Positions 12,615-21,402 of a stretch of 39,107 bases of DNA are shown here, piece by piece (the stretch's first letter is position 1; every line of letters begins with the position of its first letter). This DNA comes from Clostridia bacterium (GTDB lineage: Bacteria > Bacillota > Clostridia > Oscillospirales > Acutalibacteraceae), in assembly GCA_017550105.1 (NCBI GenBank), contig JAFYLQ010000010.1, positions 1-39,107 on the forward strand, given 5' to 3'. The notes under the pieces were generated by a model. That model was not told the DNA's origin and did not search any database. It was given only the letters and a program-made list of their open reading frames with translations. Both the position numbers and the translations under genes were made by a program.

Positions 12615-12654
12615 TAACACATAAAGTACTTTTGTATTAAAAGGAGTGCGTGAT

Positions 12655-14601
12655 ATGTTTAAAAAAGCTTTGGCATTAGTTCTCAGTCTTGTTCTTATGT
12701 GCTCGGTGCTTGCTACAACAGTTGGTGCGGCAGTTCAGTTCGAGGGTGCAATCAGTGACTACCCCGTTATTATGGTTGCGGGATACAGTAGCTCCGAGCT
12801 TGTTAAGGTTGAAGAAGACGGAACAAGAACCCGTATATGGGGTCTTGATATGGATTCTGTTTTAGACAGGGTTGTTAATCGCATCTATGATTTGGGCAAG
12901 GGGCTTGTGCTTACGGCAAAGGGTGATGCAGAGTATCTTGGCAGAACCCTCGGCGAAGAGATTGAAGCTGAGCTTGAATATATGAAAATTAATCCCGACG
13001 GCACAAGTAAATATAATATTCAGGTTGAAAATACTTCTGTAGAAGAAACAAATATGAAATATATCCTCGATAACGGTCTTCCCCTTGAGTATATTAACGA
13101 GGACAAAATTTCATACGAAATTGCCGAATACGTGGGTGAAGAAAATATGTTTTTCTATACCAACGACTGGCGACAGAGTGTTTATGACTGTGCGGTAGGT
13201 CTTGACGAGTATATTCAGAAGGTTAAGGAATATACAGGTAAGGACAAGGTTAATATTATTGCCGTTTCCCACGGCGGTCAGGTTTCGGCGGTGTATCTTT
13301 CACTTTTTGGTTACAAGCAGGATGTGGATAACGCCGTTCTTACCGTTCCGGCTATTGGCGGCGCAGGTATGGCTTACGATGCATTGAGCGGTGACGTGGC
13401 TGTTGATGAATATATGCTCGTGTGGTATCTTCAGCACGGCTTTGATGCGGACGGTAAATACGAATGGCTTGTTAAGGCTCAGCAGCTTGGCTTCCTTGAT
13501 GATGTTGTAAAGGCGGCGGTGCCGTACATCCATAACGTTATCGGCTATTGGGGCAGTATATGGGATTTTATCCCTCTTGAATATTATGAGGATTTGAAGG
13601 CTGAGCGTCTTGACCCTGTAGAAAATGCCACAGTTATTGAAAAGACCGATTTCGTTCATTACGAAATTATGGCAAACTACCACGAGAATCTTCAGAAATG
13701 TGTGAATGATTACGGTATTAATATAAGTATTATAGCGGGTACGGGCGTTCCCTGTGTTACAGGTCTTCGTACAAATGCAGACGCTCTTATCAGAACAACC
13801 GATTCAACGGGTGCTCTTTGTGCACCTTATGAAAAACGCTTCAATGACGGTTACACAGGTGCAGGTACTATGTGCTCAGACCCCACACACGACCACGTAT
13901 CACCGTCCTTGGAGGTTGACGCTTCAACGGGCTTCCTTCCCGAAAATACATGGTACGTTGACGGGCTTTTCCATGGAATGACCTTCCACGACCCCTATTC
14001 AAGAAGCCTTGCGCTTAAAAACCTTTTAACAGATGAAATTGTAAACGTTCACTCCAATCCCGAATATCCTCAGTTCCACGAGTCAACCAACACAAACTAT
14101 GCAGTTTCGGTCAGGTTTGACAGAAGTGCCGAGGGCTATATATCCTCAAGGGATAAAAATATTGTTATTAAAAATCTTTCGGCAAATTATTCAATTAAGG
14201 TTACCTCGGTGCTTTTTGAAGGTGCCGACCTTACGGTAAACACTATCGGTAAGAAAACCTTAGCGCCCGGTGAGGAGCTTACAATAAGTATAAAGGGCGA
14301 TATTCCAAGAGTCAGCAATGCCGTTATGCAGGTTAAGGTCAACTATGAAATGCCTGATAATGCAACCTCGCTGATAGGCGAAAGGATTTGCAAGTTTAAA
14401 ATTATGAACGGCGCCTCCGCTGTTTACGATGAATCCGAGCCGTTTGTTGATGCGGATTTAGCAACGGGCTTTGAAAAGGTAGTGGACGAGGATACAAATC
14501 AGGTGCTTGTGAACACGGGTGTTGCAGGTATCGTAAGCTTTATTTATGAATGGTTTATAACCCTTTTACAGCAGTTGGGTATAAGCGGATATCTTAAATG
14601 A
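12655..14601 (+). CDS. Secreted alpha/beta-hydrolase (lipase/acyltransferase-like)
   Basis: A 648-residue exported protein. Residues 1-26 form a signal peptide ending in TTVGAA. The mature part begins with YPVIMVAGYSSSEL, a lipase-type oxyanion strand, and carries the nucleophile elbow IIAVSHGGQVSAVYL (Ser near residue 210), as in LCAT/lipase-like enzymes that act on ester bonds. A plausible catalytic His lies in DGLFHGMTFHDP (about 445). The region after residue 470 looks like an immunoglobulin-type all-beta domain (VRFDRSAEGY onward), and a hydrophobic helix near the C-terminus (GIVSFIYEWFITLLQQLG) may hold the protein at the membrane. The frame opens at GTG 12646, but ATG 12655 has AAGGAG at ideal distance. 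Substrate unknown. No terminator separates it from the rpsF promoter. Confidence 0.78.
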   Translation: MFKKALALVLSLVLMCSVLATTVGAAVQFEGAISDYPVIMVAGYSSSELVKVEEDGTRTRIWGLDMDSVLDRVVNRIYDLGKGLVLTAKGDAEYLGRTLGEEIEAELEYMKINPDGTSKYNIQVENTSVEETNMKYILDNGLPLEYINEDKISYEIAEYVGEENMFFYTNDWRQSVYDCAVGLDEYIQKVKEYTGKDKVNIIAVSHGGQVSAVYLSLFGYKQDVDNAVLTVPAIGGAGMAYDALSGDVAVDEYMLVWYLQHGFDADGKYEWLVKAQQLGFLDDVVKAAVPYIHNVIGYWGSIWDFIPLEYYEDLKAERLDPVENATVIEKTDFVHYEIMANYHENLQKCVNDYGINISIIAGTGVPCVTGLRTNADALIRTTDSTGALCAPYEKRFNDGYTGAGTMCSDPTHDHVSPSLEVDASTGFLPENTWYVDGLFHGMTFHDPYSRSLALKNLLTDEIVNVHSNPEYPQFHESTNTNYAVSVRFDRSAEGYISSRDKNIVIKNLSANYSIKVTSVLFEGADLTVNTIGKKTLAPGEELTISIKGDIPRVSNAVMQVKVNYEMPDNATSLIGERICKFKIMNGASAVYDESEPFVDADLATGFEKVVDEDTNQVLVNTGVAGIVSFIYEWFITLLQQLGISGYLK

Positions 14602-14620
14602 AAATAAATTAAAATAACCC

Positions 14621-14649
14621 TTGACTTATTGCTTGAATAGTGATACAAT
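14621..14649 (+). promoter_or_regulatory. rpsF-ssb-rpsR promoter
   Basis: TTGACT, 17-base spacer, TACAAT, with TG upstream of the -10. It lies about 90 bases before rpsF, leaving a structured leader. Confidence 0.85.
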
Positions 14650-14653
14650 ACGT

Positions 14654-14733
14654 AATCGTCGTGGAATGTCCGCGGCGATTATTTCCTTGCTCTTAAATCG
14701 ATATCAATAAGAGCCGGAGTCCATAAGGAGGTG
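14654..14733 (+). promoter_or_regulatory. Structured rpsF leader, candidate S6:S18 autoregulatory site
   Basis: Two hairpins fill the leader. The first has an 11-bp stem AATCGTCGTGG / CCGCGGCGATT (14654-14680) with two G-U wobbles and a 5-base loop. The second is GCTCTTA / TAAGAGC (14689-14714), directly followed by CGGAG and the ribosome site AAGGAGGTG. In many bacteria the S6:S18 complex binds a leader motif with a CCG trinucleotide to repress rpsF. CCG occurs here at the base of both hairpins, but I cannot confirm the motif's internal-loop geometry. Confidence 0.5.
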
Positions 14734-14739
14734 CAAACG

Positions 14740-15021
14740 ATGTCAAACAGTTACGAAACAATCATTGTTTTCTCTTTGAAAAACGGTGAAGAGGCTGCTA
14801 AAACTCTTGCTGAAAAGTTCAAAGCAATGATGGAAAAGAACGGTGCTGTCGACAGCGTTGACGAGTGGGGTAAGCGTAGACTTGCATATCTCATCAACGA
14901 CGAAGAAGATGGTTACTACGTTCTCTATAACCACACTTGCGAAGCTGGTTTCCCTGCAGAGCTTGAACGTGTTCTCGGTATCACCGACGGCGTTCTTCGT
15001 TCAATGGTAATTAAAAAATAA
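14740..15021 (+). CDS. rpsF: 30S ribosomal protein S6
   Basis: A 93-residue small-subunit protein that binds S18 and the central domain of 16S rRNA. YETIIVFSLKNGEEAAKTLAEKF at the start, VDEWGKRRLAYLINDEEDGYYVLY in the middle (conserved WGKRxLAYxI) and ERVLGITDGVLRSMVIKK at the end are typical. The frame extends to GTG 14731, but ATG 14740 has a near-perfect AAGGAGGTG seven bases upstream. First gene of the conserved rpsF-ssb-rpsR operon, where a DNA-binding protein lies between two ribosomal partners. Confidence 0.98.
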   Translation: MSNSYETIIVFSLKNGEEAAKTLAEKFKAMMEKNGAVDSVDEWGKRRLAYLINDEEDGYYVLYNHTCEAGFPAELERVLGITDGVLRSMVIKK

Positions 15022-15033
15022 GAGGTGTGAAAG

Positions 15034-15465
15034 ATGCTTAATTGCGCAGTTATTATGGGCAGACTTACTGCCGATCCCGAACTTCGCCAGACTCCCTCAG
15101 GTGTTTCTGTTACAAGATTTACTGTTGCGGTTGACCGTGGCTACGTTAAAGCCGGTGAAGAAAGAAAAGCCGACTTCATCAACGTTGTTGCATGGCGTCA
15201 GACTGCAGAGTTTGTAACAAGATATTTCTCAAAAGGCTCTATGATTGCCGTTCAGGGTGCAATCCAGACCGGTTCTTATGAGAAAGACGGCGTTAAACGC
15301 TCCACATTTGAGATTATTGCCGATAACGTAAGTTTCTGCGGCTCTAAAAATGAGTCTTCAACAGGTGCAGCTCCCAGAGCTACCGAAACAGCAGCTACAT
15401 CTTTCTCTAACGGCAGCATTGATGATTTCGCAGCAATTGCTGACGATGATGATTTGCCGTTCTGA
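15034..15465 (+). CDS. ssb: Single-stranded DNA-binding protein
   Basis: The 143-residue protein coats single-stranded DNA during replication and repair. The OB-fold spans about 1-105 (MLNCAVIMGRLTADPELRQT, then FINVVAWRQTAEFV and GAIQTGSYEKDGVKRSTFEI). A short flexible Ser/Thr/Ala linker follows, and the acidic tail DDDDLPF is the docking peptide for replication and repair partners. All expected elements are intact. Ribosome site GAGGTGTG. It is 12 bases from rpsF and 24 from rpsR. Confidence 0.97.
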   Translation: MLNCAVIMGRLTADPELRQTPSGVSVTRFTVAVDRGYVKAGEERKADFINVVAWRQTAEFVTRYFSKGSMIAVQGAIQTGSYEKDGVKRSTFEIIADNVSFCGSKNESSTGAAPRATETAATSFSNGSIDDFAAIADDDDLPF

Positions 15466-15489
15466 TTCTAACAGGAGGAAAATATAATT

Positions 15490-15735
15490 ATGGCATACGA
15501 TAAAAGTGATCGCCGTCCCAACAAAAAAGGCCGCAAAAAAGTTTGCGCTTTCTGTGTTGAGAAGGTTGAAAAAATTGACTATAAGGATGCTGCTAAACTT
15601 CGTCGTTATACATCCGACAGAGCAAAAATCCTTCCCCGCCGTGTAACAGGTACATGTGCATACCACCAGAGAGAGCTCACAACTGCTATTAAAAGAGCAA
15701 GAATGATTGCCCTCCTTCCCTACACAGCAGACTAA
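15490..15735 (+). CDS. rpsR: 30S ribosomal protein S18
   Basis: The 81-residue partner of S6 in the platform of the small subunit. Conserved core [42 protein letters not shown] is present. The CAFC motif near residue 19 plus C54/H57 suggest a zinc-ribbon (C+) form of S18. Such forms occur in many Clostridia. Strong ribosome site AGGAGG. No conventional terminator follows immediately; the next 640 bases hold the tandem RNA-like units. Confidence 0.98.
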
Positions 15736-15771
15736 TCTTTTTCCGATATGCACGCATCTTTCTGTTTTATT

Positions 15772-15963
15772 CACTCTCACGTATCTTGATACGCTACGAG
15801 TTCATAAAATCAGAAATCTGCATACATCTCGAAAAAATCTTACAGTCAATGAGAGTGTCGAGTAATCGGCACTCTTTTTTATATGGTTCATAAAAGCGAA
15901 AATCTAAAGCACACTACAACAAAAAATACTACACAGAGACTTGGAGACAGGTCTCTGTTTTTT
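15772..15963 (+). ncRNA. Putative structured RNA, unit 1 of a tandem pair
   Basis: No reading frame of note lies here. The unit folds as a 5' hairpin (ACTC 15773-15776 with GAGT 15798-15801, enclosing CGTAT-CTTG-ATACG), a linker, a perfect 10-bp terminator-type hairpin AGAGTGTCGA-GTAA-TCGGCACTCT plus T-run (15852-15880), a spacer, and a second terminator-type hairpin CAGAGAC/GTCTCTG plus six T (15934-15963). CACTCTCA (15772-15779) is also fully complementary to TGAGAGTG (15850-15857), so two mutually exclusive folds are possible, as in an attenuator. No own promoter is evident; it may be read from rpsR. Confidence 0.55.
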
Positions 15964-16123
15964 ATTGCTCTCACGTATCTTGATACGCTACGAGCTCATA
16001 AAATCAGAAATCTGCATACATCTCGAAAAAATCTTACAGTCAACGAGAGTGTCGAGTAATCGGCACTCTTTTTTATATAGTTCATAAAAGCGAAAATCTA
16101 AAGCACACTACAACAAAAAATAC
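15773..16123. repeat. Tandem direct repeat, 157-base block twice at a 194-base period
   Basis: Block 15773-15929 recurs at 15967-16123 with only four substitutions by my count (153/157 identical). Two of the four are a compensating pair in the 5' stem. The 37 bases between the blocks are not conserved in sequence, although both copies place a hairpin plus T-run there. Confidence 0.9.
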
Positions 16124-16159
16124 ATTACAGGAGCTTGTTTTGGCAGGTTCCTGTTTTTT
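15966..16159 (+). ncRNA. Putative structured RNA, unit 2 of a tandem pair
   Basis: Second copy, shifted by exactly 194 bases. The 5' hairpin now reads GCTC (15967-15970) with GAGC (15992-15995), a compensatory change relative to unit 1. The first terminator-type hairpin is identical (16046-16074). The last hairpin has a different sequence but the same place and form (CAGGAG/TTCCTG, 16128-16153, then six T). The alternative antiterminator-type pairing is weaker here (GCTCTC with GAGAGT, one wobble). The unit ends about 75 bases before the rpmH promoter, so it does not simply lead into rpmH. Confidence 0.55.
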
Positions 16160-16232
16160 GTTATGTGAAATAGTGCCAAAAAGTAAAGGAACAAGGATAT
16201 TAATATTAAATAGTTTGTTTAAGCATTAACTC

Positions 16233-16261
16233 TTGACTTTTTCTTTGAATTTTTATATAAT
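16233..16261 (+). promoter_or_regulatory. rpmH promoter
   Basis: TTGACT, 17-base spacer, perfect TATAAT. The start of transcription would be near 16268, giving a roughly 105-base leader. TGCAAC-TGTCTT-GTTGCA (16268-16285) would form a hairpin at the very 5' end of the message, which often stabilises it. Confidence 0.88.
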
Positions 16262-16373
16262 GCAATGTGCAACTGTCTTGTTGCAGAATAATCAAATACA
16301 GGTTTTAAATTTACTACAACTTCTACTACTTCTTCGTAAATACTACCTGAATATATAGAATGGAGTAACAAAA

Positions 16374-16508
16374 ATGAAAAGAACTTATCAGCCCAAAAAA
16401 AGACACAGAAAGATGGAACACGGTTTCCGTAAAAGAATGGCAGACAGAAACGGCCGCAAGGTGCTTGCTCGTCGTCGTAAAAAAGGCAGAAAGCAGCTCA
16501 CATACTAA
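16374..16508 (+). CDS. rpmH: 50S ribosomal protein L34
   Basis: A 44-residue highly basic protein ([20 protein letters not shown] at the start, [13 protein letters not shown] at the end), full length for L34, which sits in the 50S core. It begins at ATG 16374 after TGGAG. It starts the conserved rpmH-rnpA-yidD-yidC-khpB string usually found beside the replication origin. dnaA is not upstream here. Confidence 0.97.
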
Positions 16509-16548
16509 GATTTTTTGACTGTCGGGTTAACACCCGAAGGAGAATAAT

Positions 16549-16902
16549 GTGTCAGACTTCGTCACGCTGAAAAGCAATTCCGATTTTCGTCGGTTATATA
16601 ATAGGGGCAAAACAGTTACTGATCCTGCGTTGGTTGTTTATTACTCAAAGAACCACGCGGGAATTTGCCGTATTGGTATAACTACGAGCAAAAAAATAGG
16701 CAATGCCGTTGAACGTAACCGTTCCAGAAGGCTCCTCAGGGAGGCATTCAGGAGCGTTTGTAGTGATGTTTCACCCTGCTACGATATTGTTATTGTGGCA
16801 CGTTCTAAGACGAAGTATGTCAAAAGCACCCGTCTTGCCGAAATAATGCACAGGATTTTTGAGGAAAAGGGTATGCTTAAAGGCGAGAGTGAAAGCTTAT
16901 GA
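16549..16902 (+). CDS. rnpA: Ribonuclease P protein component
   Basis: Protein subunit (117 residues) that helps the RNase P RNA recognise precursor tRNA. The RNR motif [18 protein letters not shown] (about 53-70) and the N-terminal [14 protein letters not shown] are typical. The start is GTG 16549. An ATG at 16547 in another frame closes after seven codons, so the GTG with AAGGAG (16537-16542) is the real start. A small hairpin CGGGT-TAAC-ACCCG (16523-16536) directly abuts the ribosome site and could tune translation. It overlaps yidD by ATGA. Confidence 0.96.
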
Positions 16903-19167: not shown

Positions 19168-19422
19168 AATACTACTAAATCCCAGACGGAGAAATTAAGG
19201 ATTTTACCTTTTTCAGAGAGGCGTCGGTTGGTGCAAGACGTCAAAGGTGTTTCCCCAAGACCACTCCCGAGTGCGACACGAAGCGTAAGATAAGTGTTGC
19301 CGTGTGAGCCGCGTTAAGGCTTCTCGAGTGATGTAGCCCTTTTATGAGGTTGCATAATTTGGGTGGAACCGTGGAGTTAATAAGACTTCATCCCATTTTT
19401 AGTGGGATGAAGTCTGTTTTTT
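19168..19422 (+). promoter_or_regulatory. T-box riboswitch of thrS (threonine)
   Basis: The leader senses uncharged tRNA-Thr. Seen: stem I with an AGAGAG bulge and the GGTTGGTGCAAG apical motif (about 19215-19236), a likely specifier ACC at 19260-19262, the T-box GGGTGGAACCGTGG (19361-19374) and a 13-bp terminator AGACTTCATCCCA/TGGGATGAAGTCT plus T-run (19383-19422). TGGA in the bulge would pair with an ACCU end, as expected for tRNA-Thr with discriminator U. The antiterminator uses the CCC of the terminator's left arm, so the two folds exclude each other. This leader fills most of the 334-base gap before thrS. Confidence 0.95.
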
Positions 19423-19461: not shown

Positions 19462-21402
19462 ATGGTAAAGATTAAACTTCGTGACGACGTAAGAGAGTAC
19501 GAAAACGGCGTAACACCTATTGATGTTTGTAAGGATATCAGTATGGGTCTTTTCAGAAATCTTTGTGCTTGTCTTATAAATGGTGAGAGTGCAGATATCC
19601 GCACCCCCATTAACGAGGATTGTGAGCTTGAATTCCTCACCTTTGAAAGTGAAGAGGGTAAGCATGCATTCTGGCACACCGCATCCCATATTCTTGCTCA
19701 GGCAGTTAAACGCCTTTATCCCGAGGCTAAGCTTGCAATAGGTCCTGCTATTGATAACGGCTTCTATTACGATATTGATTGCGAAACTTCATTCACACCC
19801 GAGCTTCTTACAAAAATCGAAGCAGAAATGAAGAAAATTGTTAAAGAAGACCTTGCTCTTGAAAGATTCCAGATGGAGCCTCAGGCTGCTATCGAAGAGA
19901 TGAAGGCTAAGGGTGAAATCTACAAGGTTGAGCTTATTGAAGAGCATGCAGGTAAAAACGAGCCCATCAGCTTCTACAAGCAGGGCGAATTTACCGATGT
20001 TTGTGCAGGTCCCCACATTCCCTCAACAGGCAGAGTCAAAGCATTTAAGCTTACTGCTTGCACAGGTGCATACTGGCGCGGTGACCAGAACAACAAGATG
20101 CTTCAGCGTATTTATGGTACTGCATTCCCCAAGAATGCAGAGCTCGAAGAACATCTGCAGAGGGTTGAAGAGGCTAAAAAGCGTGACCACAACAAGCTTG
20201 GTCGTGAGCTTGAAATCTTTACAACTGTTGATACAATCGGTCAGGGTCTTCCCATACTTCTTCCCAAGGGTACGTTTATTGTTCAGACACTTCAGCGCTT
20301 TGTTGAAGATGAAGAAGCAAAAAGAGGCTGGGTACGTACAAAAACTCCCCTTATGGCTAAGAGTGACCTTTACAAAATTTCAGGTCATTGGGATCACTAC
20401 AAGGACGGTATGTTCGTTTTAGGTGACGAGGAAAAGGATGACGAGGTATTTGCACTTCGTCCTATGACCTGCCCCTTCCAGTATCAGGCATACCTTAACA
20501 GAGCACGTTCTTATCGTGACCTTCCTATGCGACTTGCTGAAACCTCAACTCTTTTCAGAAACGAGTCATCGGGTGAAATGCACGGTCTTATCCGTGTTCG
20601 TCAGTTCACAATCTCTGAGGGTCACCTTATGTGCCTTCCTGAGCAGCTTGCCGATGAATTCAAGCGTTGTCTTGACCTTTGCATCTTTATGCTTAAAACT
20701 CTTGGTCTTTACGAGGACGTTTCATACCGCTTCTCACAGTGGGATCCCGAGGATACCGAAAAATACATCGGCACAAAGGAGCAGTGGGATGAGGCTCAGG
20801 GCGTTATGAAGGAGATTCTTGACGATATCGGTCTTGCTTACAAGGTTGGTGTTGGTGAGGCTGCTTTCTACGGTCCCAAGCTTGATATTCAGATTAAGAA
20901 CGTTTACGGTAAAGAGGATACTCTTATTACTATCCAGATTGACCAGATGCTTGCTGAAAAGTTTGGTATGGAATACGTTGACCGTGACGGCACAAAGAAG
21001 AATCCCTACATCATTCACAGAACTTCCATCGGTTGCTATGAAAGAACACTTGCTCTTCTTATTGAAAAATACGCAGGTGCCTTCCCCTTGTGGCTTGCGC
21101 CCGAGCAGTTCCGTATTCTTCCCATTTCCGAAAGACATCATGATGCATGCTTCGAGCTTAAAAACAAGCTTGAGGAAAAGGGCTTCCGTGTAACTGTTGA
21201 CGACAGATCCGAAAAAACAGGCTACAAAATCCGTGAAGCACAGCTTCAGAAAATTCCCTATATGCTTGTTCTTGGTGACAAGGAAATCGAAAACGGCGAG
21301 GTTGCAGTACGTGCAAGAAAAGCCGGTGATATGGGCACAATGAGTGTTGATGCATTCATTGAAATGGCTCAGAAGGAAGTTGACGATAAGGTTATCAACT
21401 AA
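19462..21402 (+). CDS. thrS: Threonyl-tRNA synthetase
   Basis: Class II synthetase that charges tRNA-Thr, 646 residues, full length. Parts in order: TGS domain (1-60), editing/SAD domain with HTASH (about 73) and the C-terminal Cys of its zinc-like set (CAGPHIP, about 182), catalytic core with the zinc Cys in LRPMTCPFQYQ and motif 2 FRNESSGEMHGLIRVRQF, motif 3 (HRTSIGCYERTLALLIE), and the anticodon-binding domain. Ribosome site GAAAGGATG. Controlled by the upstream T-box. It shares a two-way terminator with the convergent copA. Confidence 0.98.
   Translation: MVKIKLRDDVREYENGVTPIDVCKDISMGLFRNLCACLINGESADIRTPINEDCELEFLTFESEEGKHAFWHTASHILAQAVKRLYPEAKLAIGPAIDNGFYYDIDCETSFTPELLTKIEAEMKKIVKEDLALERFQMEPQAAIEEMKAKGEIYKVELIEEHAGKNEPISFYKQGEFTDVCAGPHIPSTGRVKAFKLTACTGAYWRGDQNNKMLQRIYGTAFPKNAELEEHLQRVEEAKKRDHNKLGRELEIFTTVDTIGQGLPILLPKGTFIVQTLQRFVEDEEAKRGWVRTKTPLMAKSDLYKISGHWDHYKDGMFVLGDEEKDDEVFALRPMTCPFQYQAYLNRARSYRDLPMRLAETSTLFRNESSGEMHGLIRVRQFTISEGHLMCLPEQLADEFKRCLDLCIFMLKTLGLYEDVSYRFSQWDPEDTEKYIGTKEQWDEAQGVMKEILDDIGLAYKVGVGEAAFYGPKLDIQIKNVYGKEDTLITIQIDQMLAEKFGMEYVDRDGTKKNPYIIHRTSIGCYERTLALLIEKYAGAFPLWLAPEQFRILPISERHHDACFELKNKLEEKGFRVTVDDRSEKTGYKIREAQLQKIPYMLVLGDKEIENGEVAVRARKAGDMGTMSVDAFIEMAQKEVDDKVIN

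Follow-up and report, generated by a model that had tools for sequence, protein, structure and literature searches.

Several described systems resemble parts of the locus reported here. REP elements and BIMEs, associated with RAYT transposases, are dispersed, often clustered, hairpin-forming extragenic palindromes with proposed roles in termination and a link to mobility; in the accessible part of PMC2817692, REPs are recognized by the head GT(A/G)G, BIMEs by their alternating orientation. The insertion sequence IS1272 (IS1182 family) targets inverted repeats and terminator hairpins and, according to the available text of PMC4923244 and PMC5678879, deletes or replaces its target without duplicating it, although one route in the model of PMC5678879 leads to duplication of the entire stem-loop. 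Among structured RNA candidates, the L17 downstream element (L17DE, RF01708; PMC2864571) lies in the 3′ UTR of a Firmicutes ribosomal-protein gene, and regulation by a structured cis element in a bacterial 3′ UTR is called "highly unusual" in the accessible text of that paper. A survey of the human microbiome, as summarized in the available part of PMC8040213, yielded 3161 structured RNAs with 250 palindromic candidates (230 with predicted terminators).

Here, we analyzed a 39,107-nucleotide stretch of DNA from a Clostridia bacterium of the Acutalibacteraceae (contig JAFYLQ010000010.1; hereafter, the window) and confirmed that a tandem repeat lies behind rpsR, with rpsF (TIGR00166) and ssb (TIGR00621) on its 5′ side. 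An ungapped-block search bore out the preliminary description, made from the sequence alone, in that the longest block with four or fewer differences was exactly 157 bases (15773–15929 versus 15967–16123), starting at 15773 and not at 15772 as first given. The two blocks differ by A15773G, T15801C, T15850C and G15885A; A15773G and T15801C together change both sides of a single pair, so that ACTC (15773–15776)/GAGT (15798–15801) becomes GCTC/GAGC, the compensating exchange that had been claimed. The wider homology of the two units extends over 179 nt (93%) with a spacing of 194, and within the window 97 15-mers are common at offset 194 versus one each at the next listed offsets, in agreement with the proposed unit length. 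In contrast, the unit boundaries had been drawn wrongly: the element is a hairpin with its arms and alternates with terminators, and its anatomy begins at 15736, directly 3′ of the rpsR stop codon, because 15736–15772, which had been missed, forms a left arm that pairs with 15802–15841. The features of the region are listed below; R1 denotes a covariance model built from alignment A1 of 15 rpsR units.

15490..15735, + strand: rpsR (30S ribosomal protein S18), last gene of rpsF–ssb–rpsR (NCBIfam TIGR00165, 105.7 bits)
15736..15772, + strand: left arm, copy 1, pairing with 15802–15841 (MFE fold of 15733–15845)
15773..15801, + strand: apical core hairpin, copy 1 (ACTC...CGTATCTTGATACG...GAGT) (fold; R1 75.2 bits, this copy itself being in the model)
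15802..15841, + strand: right arm, copy 1 (fold; near-identical in units of genomes G175, G313 and G311)
15851..15880, + strand: terminator hairpin B, copy 1, with T-run (fold and terminator scan)
15885..15929, + strand: right-arm-like linker, core hairpin lost (R1 29.0 bits over 15870–15929; alignment to right arm)
15933..15964, + strand: terminator hairpin A, copy 1, with T-run (fold and terminator scan)
15967..15995, + strand: apical core hairpin, copy 2 (GCTC...GAGC) (fold, R1 and block comparison)
15996..16035, + strand: right arm, copy 2, a copy without a long left arm (repeat alignment)
16045..16074, + strand: terminator hairpin B, copy 2, with T-run (fold and terminator scan)
16079..16123, + strand: second core-less right-arm-like linker (R1 27.2 bits over 16064–16123)
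16127..16159, + strand: terminator hairpin A′, copy 2, other sequence in the same place and form (fold and terminator scan)
16233..16261, + strand: promoter-like site before rpmH (TTGACT-17-TATAAT, 11/12 consensus matches), boundary of the 3′ region
16374..16508: rpmH (gene search)

Including its left arm, copy 1 is an imperfect hairpin (rod) of ~105 nt that runs from the rpsR stop codon, which abuts the element, and the T-run of terminator A (copy 1) also serves the next core as a short left arm. R1 also gave a weak match on the minus strand at 15735–15808 (15.6 bits, E 0.07). The alternative that 15736–15772 is a diverged reverse copy of the linker was rejected, as the fold identified this segment as the left arm.

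The claim of two terminator-type hairpins per unit was borne out by the terminator scan, which detected four hairpins, all on the + strand (15851–15876, 15933–15958, 16045–16070 and 16127–16154), each with the GC-rich stem and T-run behind a gene that are typical of an intrinsic terminator (at 15851, 15933, 16045 and 16127). The last of them is unlike its counterpart at 15933–15958 in sequence but keeps its place and form, again as described. Six terminator-like sites were counted in 14500–16700 versus 1.8 ± 1.3 in shuffled sequences; four are the array hairpins, and the remaining two are a single weak rpsR site detected on each strand. The fold of the 440-nt region had a z-score of −7.6 (100 shuffles). 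Consistent with the reported absence of a coding frame, no credible reading frame was found in the array among ORFs of at least 40 aa: those mostly over the array were only 48–58 aa long, and a 140-aa antisense ORF (15358–15780) covers just its first 45 bases.

Tandem near-identical units ending in terminators might represent two stand-alone, trans-acting small RNAs, each with its own terminator, as the preliminary description had suggested, and the A-rich unpaired linker could base-pair with targets. However, a scan covering σ70-type patterns revealed no promoter-like site in 15736–16159 (the scan as a whole gave five sites versus 3.7 ± 2.1 in shuffles, the nearest one 3′ of the array being that at 16233), relatives in the genus follow genes on the sense strand, and copy number and order vary between species, as described below. 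Since the array has no internal promoter-like site and the family follows genes, the small-RNA pair is unsupported, and we consider it most improbable. The other suggestion, that the units are repeated 3′ ends of the rpsF operon message, is supported by the position of the array behind rpsF–ssb–rpsR.

A covariance-model search of related genomes, which had been proposed as a check, revealed a dispersed family. R1 matches were found in 20 of the 22 genomes of the genus, with 38 in G251 and eight in the window's genome (including the model's own two units), and many of them formed tandem arrays with a period of ~100 nt. A core model, R2, built from alignment A2 (38 fixed-pattern copies and seven others, giving 45 aligned cores), matched in 28 of 245 genomes of the order (E ≤ 0.01) and in 61 of 391 genomes of the class (E ≤ 0.001), representing 38 of 223 genera; the copy numbers per genome in these R2 searches are lower limits. 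The exact core pattern occurred in at least 117 stretches of genome contigs and in none of the viral contigs, and among the matches listed (80 titles) all were Clostridia-type MAGs (Oscillospiraceae, Ruminococcaceae and others). At the DNA level, a search of 300 family genomes gave, outside the genus and among the matches listed, only chance-like stretches of 17–43 nt. Many contigs of G361, G405 and G595 end in or beside the element, and the MAG assemblies may therefore be fragmented by it and the copy numbers underestimated. The window copies are degenerate with respect to the core consensus, the core of copy 1 scoring only 13.8 bits with R2 (E 0.058). The first rpsR units of G175 and G313 scored 27.7 and 24.7 bits with this model, and the kinship of the window copies with the family runs via the rpsR units of these related species.

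At the gathering score, Rfam recognized only a T-box in the window (19174–19398) and nothing at the array, and it gave no match in 14 loci holding family copies; the sub-threshold matches obtained at relaxed E-values look like chance. Neither Clostridiales-1 (RF01699) nor L17DE (RF01708) was matched at this score in the window or the 14 loci, leaving the proposed Clostridiales-1-type RNA unsupported. While RF01708 is tied to one gene in the accessible text of PMC2864571, the element here has no Rfam match. The set of PMC8040213 could contain the element motif; the palindromic examples named in its available text are mostly or wholly from Bacteroidetes, whereas the elements here are from Clostridia. 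No description of the family was found in the literature within a partial coverage of titles and abstract openings. By its sequence features, the family appears to be of a known kind, that of dispersed palindromic 3′ repeats or 3′-UTR structured elements, with the REP features tested not found and no Rfam match at the gathering score.

The element is an imperfect hairpin of ~100 nt that starts at or just 3′ of a stop codon and has conserved internal mismatches; it consists of an apical hairpin and long, variable but complementary arms, often with a terminator hairpin at the junction. The core consensus is CC-N-CUCG-nn-GUAU-CNNN-AUAC-nn-CUUC-GGG. In the core helices of 67 distinct copies (R2 hits from 52 chosen loci in a model-fitted alignment), we counted 58 double-change cells versus 18.8 ± 3.2 in shuffled and at most 21 in slid alignments. 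One core pair was GC in 26 copies, CG in 19, UA in four, UG in one and unpaired in 15, and the loop-closing pair was UA in 46 and CG in 21. The arms also matched each other: across 82 dereplicated elements (20 rounds), the arm duplex had an energy of −22.3 kcal/mol with its own partner versus −15.7 kcal/mol with swapped partners, the own partner being among the top 5% in 34/82 elements and the single best in only 15/82. In array L089 of G251, four embedded terminator hairpins occur, by eye, in three versions with compensating stems. Thus, homologues in related genomes covary, so that the lack of covariation named beforehand as a refutation was not observed, and selection on structure, the reading originally put forward for the window units, is the best reading of the element family.

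We next consider the position of the elements relative to genes, using in-house gene calls based on ORFs and codon scoring. At 59 chosen sites in the window's genus (40 chosen R1 matches and 19 earlier arrays with one match each, a partial set in which orthologous genes recur), the nearest upstream gene was on the same strand in 56, on the opposite strand in two and absent in one. Setting aside 17 convergent pairs, in which orientation is uninformative, left a ratio of 39:2 in favor of sense, and co-directional neighbors alone gave 34:1. A second, partly overlapping genus set gave 42:0 with eight undecided, and in a named-contig set of 121 copies the upstream gene was on the same strand in 86 and on the opposite strand in seven, with no upstream call in 26 and a position inside a called ORF in two. 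The R1 match started 20–39 nt after the stop codon in 31/56 cases. The chosen genus sites involve 30 distinct upstream genes, including those for phosphoglycerate kinase (pgk), HU, GroEL, flagellin, ferredoxin, glycerol kinase, a KH-domain protein and a transketolase/DXS-like protein (NCBIfam; several of these matches, that of pgk included, are fragments below the whole-protein cut-off), and GAPDH preceded the element in one named contig (NCBIfam). The genes for pgk, HU, GroEL, flagellin and ferredoxin are of kinds that are usually well expressed. In 17 of 32 near-stop elements the far arm paired with two or three bases of the stop codon in the MFE fold, and in the other 15 it paired with fewer than two. 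As expected of a 3′-UTR cis element, the family thus lies in sense orientation directly 3′ of coding genes in the window's genus, which does not hold for G361, G405, G417 and G327, where the co-directional sense:antisense ratio was 9:11 (3:6 in the genus g171 and 6:5 in G327).

A fixed site was found at pgk. This locus was recovered in 21 of the 22 genus genomes with a readable end in 18, and in 15 of these 18 the element stood directly at the pgk stop codon, the other three having none. The 15 pgk elements were aligned (A4), leaving out G300, G301 and G303, whose ends were unmatched by the pattern, and G308, G302 and G317, which have no element. In A4, 96.8% of the cells were paired, a figure that leans toward the structure because the structure was predicted from A4 itself, and 37 double-change cells were counted versus 12.1 ± 2.4 in shuffled and at most eight in slid alignments; the count of further pair types was within that of the shuffles (270/500). 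The base of the pgk element pairs with the last codons and the stop codon of pgk. In the last two codons, the third position changes from U to C in 3/15 and from A to G in 4/15 genomes, and in each of these cases the far arm, ~100 nt away, carries the matching G or C; one mismatch, at the Lys codon position, was seen in G175. Two internal-loop oppositions remained unpaired in 15/15 elements, which makes it less likely that the matches arose through simple template correction from one arm to the other. Sequence comparison therefore establishes the family itself, its sense 3′ position in the genus, its place at pgk, the covariation of core and arms and the pairing with pgk codons.

The rpsR locus, in contrast to this fixed place, is variable across the genus. 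It was recovered in 21 of 22 genomes, and a core was present behind rpsR in ten of them (G000, G175, G313, G251, G315, G311, G309, G306, G305 and G057), with copies and terminators varying in number and order; no core was seen in the other 11, four of which were cut short or contained Ns. By eye, G308 (locus L039) has a hairpin closely similar to terminator B directly behind rpsR without an element, and G314 (locus L040) has an A′-like hairpin alone at this position. In G304 (L048), a long, nearly perfect palindrome lies directly behind rpsR, in which, by eye, the outer arms and the terminator-like stem are kept and the core hairpin is absent. Since copy number and order differ between species and lone terminators occur in G308 and G314, the window array appears to result from a recent amplification, specific to this species, of units made up of an element and a terminator. 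The absence of a core behind rpsR in 11/21 genomes and of the element behind pgk in 3/18 also indicates that the element is dispensable, that is, not essential. The lone terminators, together with the four good terminators in the array, could be taken to mean that the array came about when the rpsR terminator region underwent an ordinary duplication in tandem, and that it serves intrinsic termination only. Against this, the conserved part of the units is the non-terminator part, and the family is found behind 30 distinct genes (59 sites) and across the class, so that a duplication of this sort is, to our minds, very unlikely as the whole explanation.

In other lineages, the family showed signs of mobility. 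Near-identical copies were dispersed in genomes of g171 (G361, G405 and G417; G393 by equal scores only), and similar copies were dispersed in G327. The unit in G361, G405 and G393 is non-coding, 207–245 bp long and bounded by inverted end repeats of type AGACTGTCSAAAAAGG, with 0 for the reversed-pattern control. A local host terminator hairpin, different at each place, was present on both sides of 13 of the 14 evaluable copies in these three genomes; three of the 13 had small differences between the hairpin copies, and the right side of L242 was partial. Of the 15 copies with both ends read, L244 was unflanked, and L260 was cut by a contig end. Whole-terminator target duplications of ~20–38 bp were noted at L238, L239, L246, L249, L250, L254 and others in G361, G405 and G393. 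An exact-repeat test for terminator duplication scored 5/10 in G361 and 2/4 in G405, with 0 for swapped flanks, and 0/11 in G417, 0/20 in G327 and 0/9 in the window's genus; the named-contig set gave 8/99, with only about three (L171, L187 and L188) being clean-looking terminators. At the HU gene of G251 (L091), the order, by eye, was terminator–element–terminator–element–terminator, which fits the terminator-duplication rule. The upstream gene was on the same versus the opposite strand in 14:7 cases in g171 and 16:6 in G327, of which eight and nine, respectively, were convergent pairs; without these, the ratios were 6:7 and 7:6 (13:13 combined). This lack of orientation bias in G361, G405, G417 and G327 speaks against an RNA-only element. 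Copies L262–L273 (G417) and L274–L293 (G327) have, by eye, hairpin-shaped ends of type GGGGCTGTAGCAAAA / GRGGCTGTAAAAAA that differ from those of G361, and different end systems may therefore move the same core.

A MITE/REP-like DNA repeat that is solely mobile or parasitic would account for the near-identical dispersed copies, their inverted end repeats, the host terminators on both sides (one partly) and the unbiased orientation in these lineages. Its hairpin would be a transposition signal, its 3′ location would result from insertion into terminator palindromes, and its covariation would reflect either a requirement of mobility for the palindrome or the correction of one arm by the other through template switching. 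However, such a repeat would not be expected to show the 34:1 sense bias among co-directional sites in the window's genus or to keep an orthologous place at pgk with changes compensated against gene codons, and template-switch correction would tend to erase the internal mismatches that persist. In addition, neither an autonomous copy (no longer end-repeat pair among the matches listed, by eye) nor a common transposase (Y1 or PF05598) was seen in the genomes tested, which are incomplete. We therefore regard an exclusively mobile repeat as rather unlikely and favor, with moderate confidence, the reading that a dispersed, structured 3′-UTR element with a mobile history was amplified locally in tandem to give the window feature.

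The element can also be compared with the known mobile systems. Whereas REPs have a short characteristic head in the accessible text of PMC2817692, the element here has an asymmetric core of ~30 nt with long arms, and the 45 aligned cores lack a conserved GTAG/GTGG head; in contrast to BIMEs, neighboring copies in arrays lie on one strand (by eye, among the arrays listed). The Y1 transposase domain PF01797 was over the cut-off in 7/22 genus genomes, marginal in the window's genome (23.8 bits) and not found in G251, the genome richest in R1 matches. Identity with REP/RAYT was rejected, given the missing head, the single orientation in arrays and a Y1_Tnp domain that is not consistently present. 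Insertion at terminator hairpins is shared with IS1272/IS1182, and duplication of the whole stem-loop, a pathway included in the available part of PMC5678879, is the footprint observed in G361, G405 and G393. The elements here differ in being short (207–245 bp) and non-coding. Among six genomes tested, five of which are 84–87% complete, PF05598, a domain linked to IS1182 transposases, was absent from G361, G393, G417, G327 and G000 and present in G405.

Where the family moves, it is free in orientation and accompanied by target duplication, and where it is fixed, it is locked in orientation and compensated against the gene; the simplest reading is therefore a mobile hairpin family that became, or also is, a 3′-UTR RNA module. 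On the mRNA, the element may fold into a rod or a three-way junction, and the rod and its coupled terminators would set and protect the 3′ end of the message. As the stop codon lies within the stem, the buried codon could perhaps also affect translation termination by acting on the terminating ribosome. For rpsF–ssb–rpsR in the window, the combination of a complete rod, another core and four terminators would make 3′-end formation strong and redundant, and it would insulate rpmH; a core located after a terminator would be transcribed on read-through only. To judge from the other genera, the element probably also spreads as a mobile hairpin that is non-autonomous and inserts at terminators, duplicating them, and such spread would be one plausible source of an alternating element/terminator array. 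More tentatively, and with somewhat less than even confidence, we propose an undescribed, class-wide Clostridia 3′-UTR family that folds back onto the coding-sequence end, buries stop codons and controls message ends and perhaps ribosome termination; it would be fixed in one lineage at genes such as pgk by coding/non-coding compensation, elsewhere mobile at terminators, which it copies, and capable of being domesticated. Structured cis elements are rare in bacterial 3′ UTRs, and here a single family follows numerous genes within one genus. Should it influence mRNA ends or termination, it would constitute an overlooked layer of 3′-end control in gut Clostridia, and the lineages with apparent hopping and terminator duplication would exhibit the passage from a mobile hairpin to a fixed UTR element, making this transition testable.

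Two further features of the window were noted. A 651-aa protein is encoded at 12646–14601 (+); at E ≤ 0.001, NCBIfam links it only to a PHA depolymerase family, through a weak 46-residue match (E 8.3e-05) far below the cut-off. The T-box leader mentioned above (RF00230, + strand, 97.5 bits) is an ordinary one, located directly 5′ of thrS at 19462.
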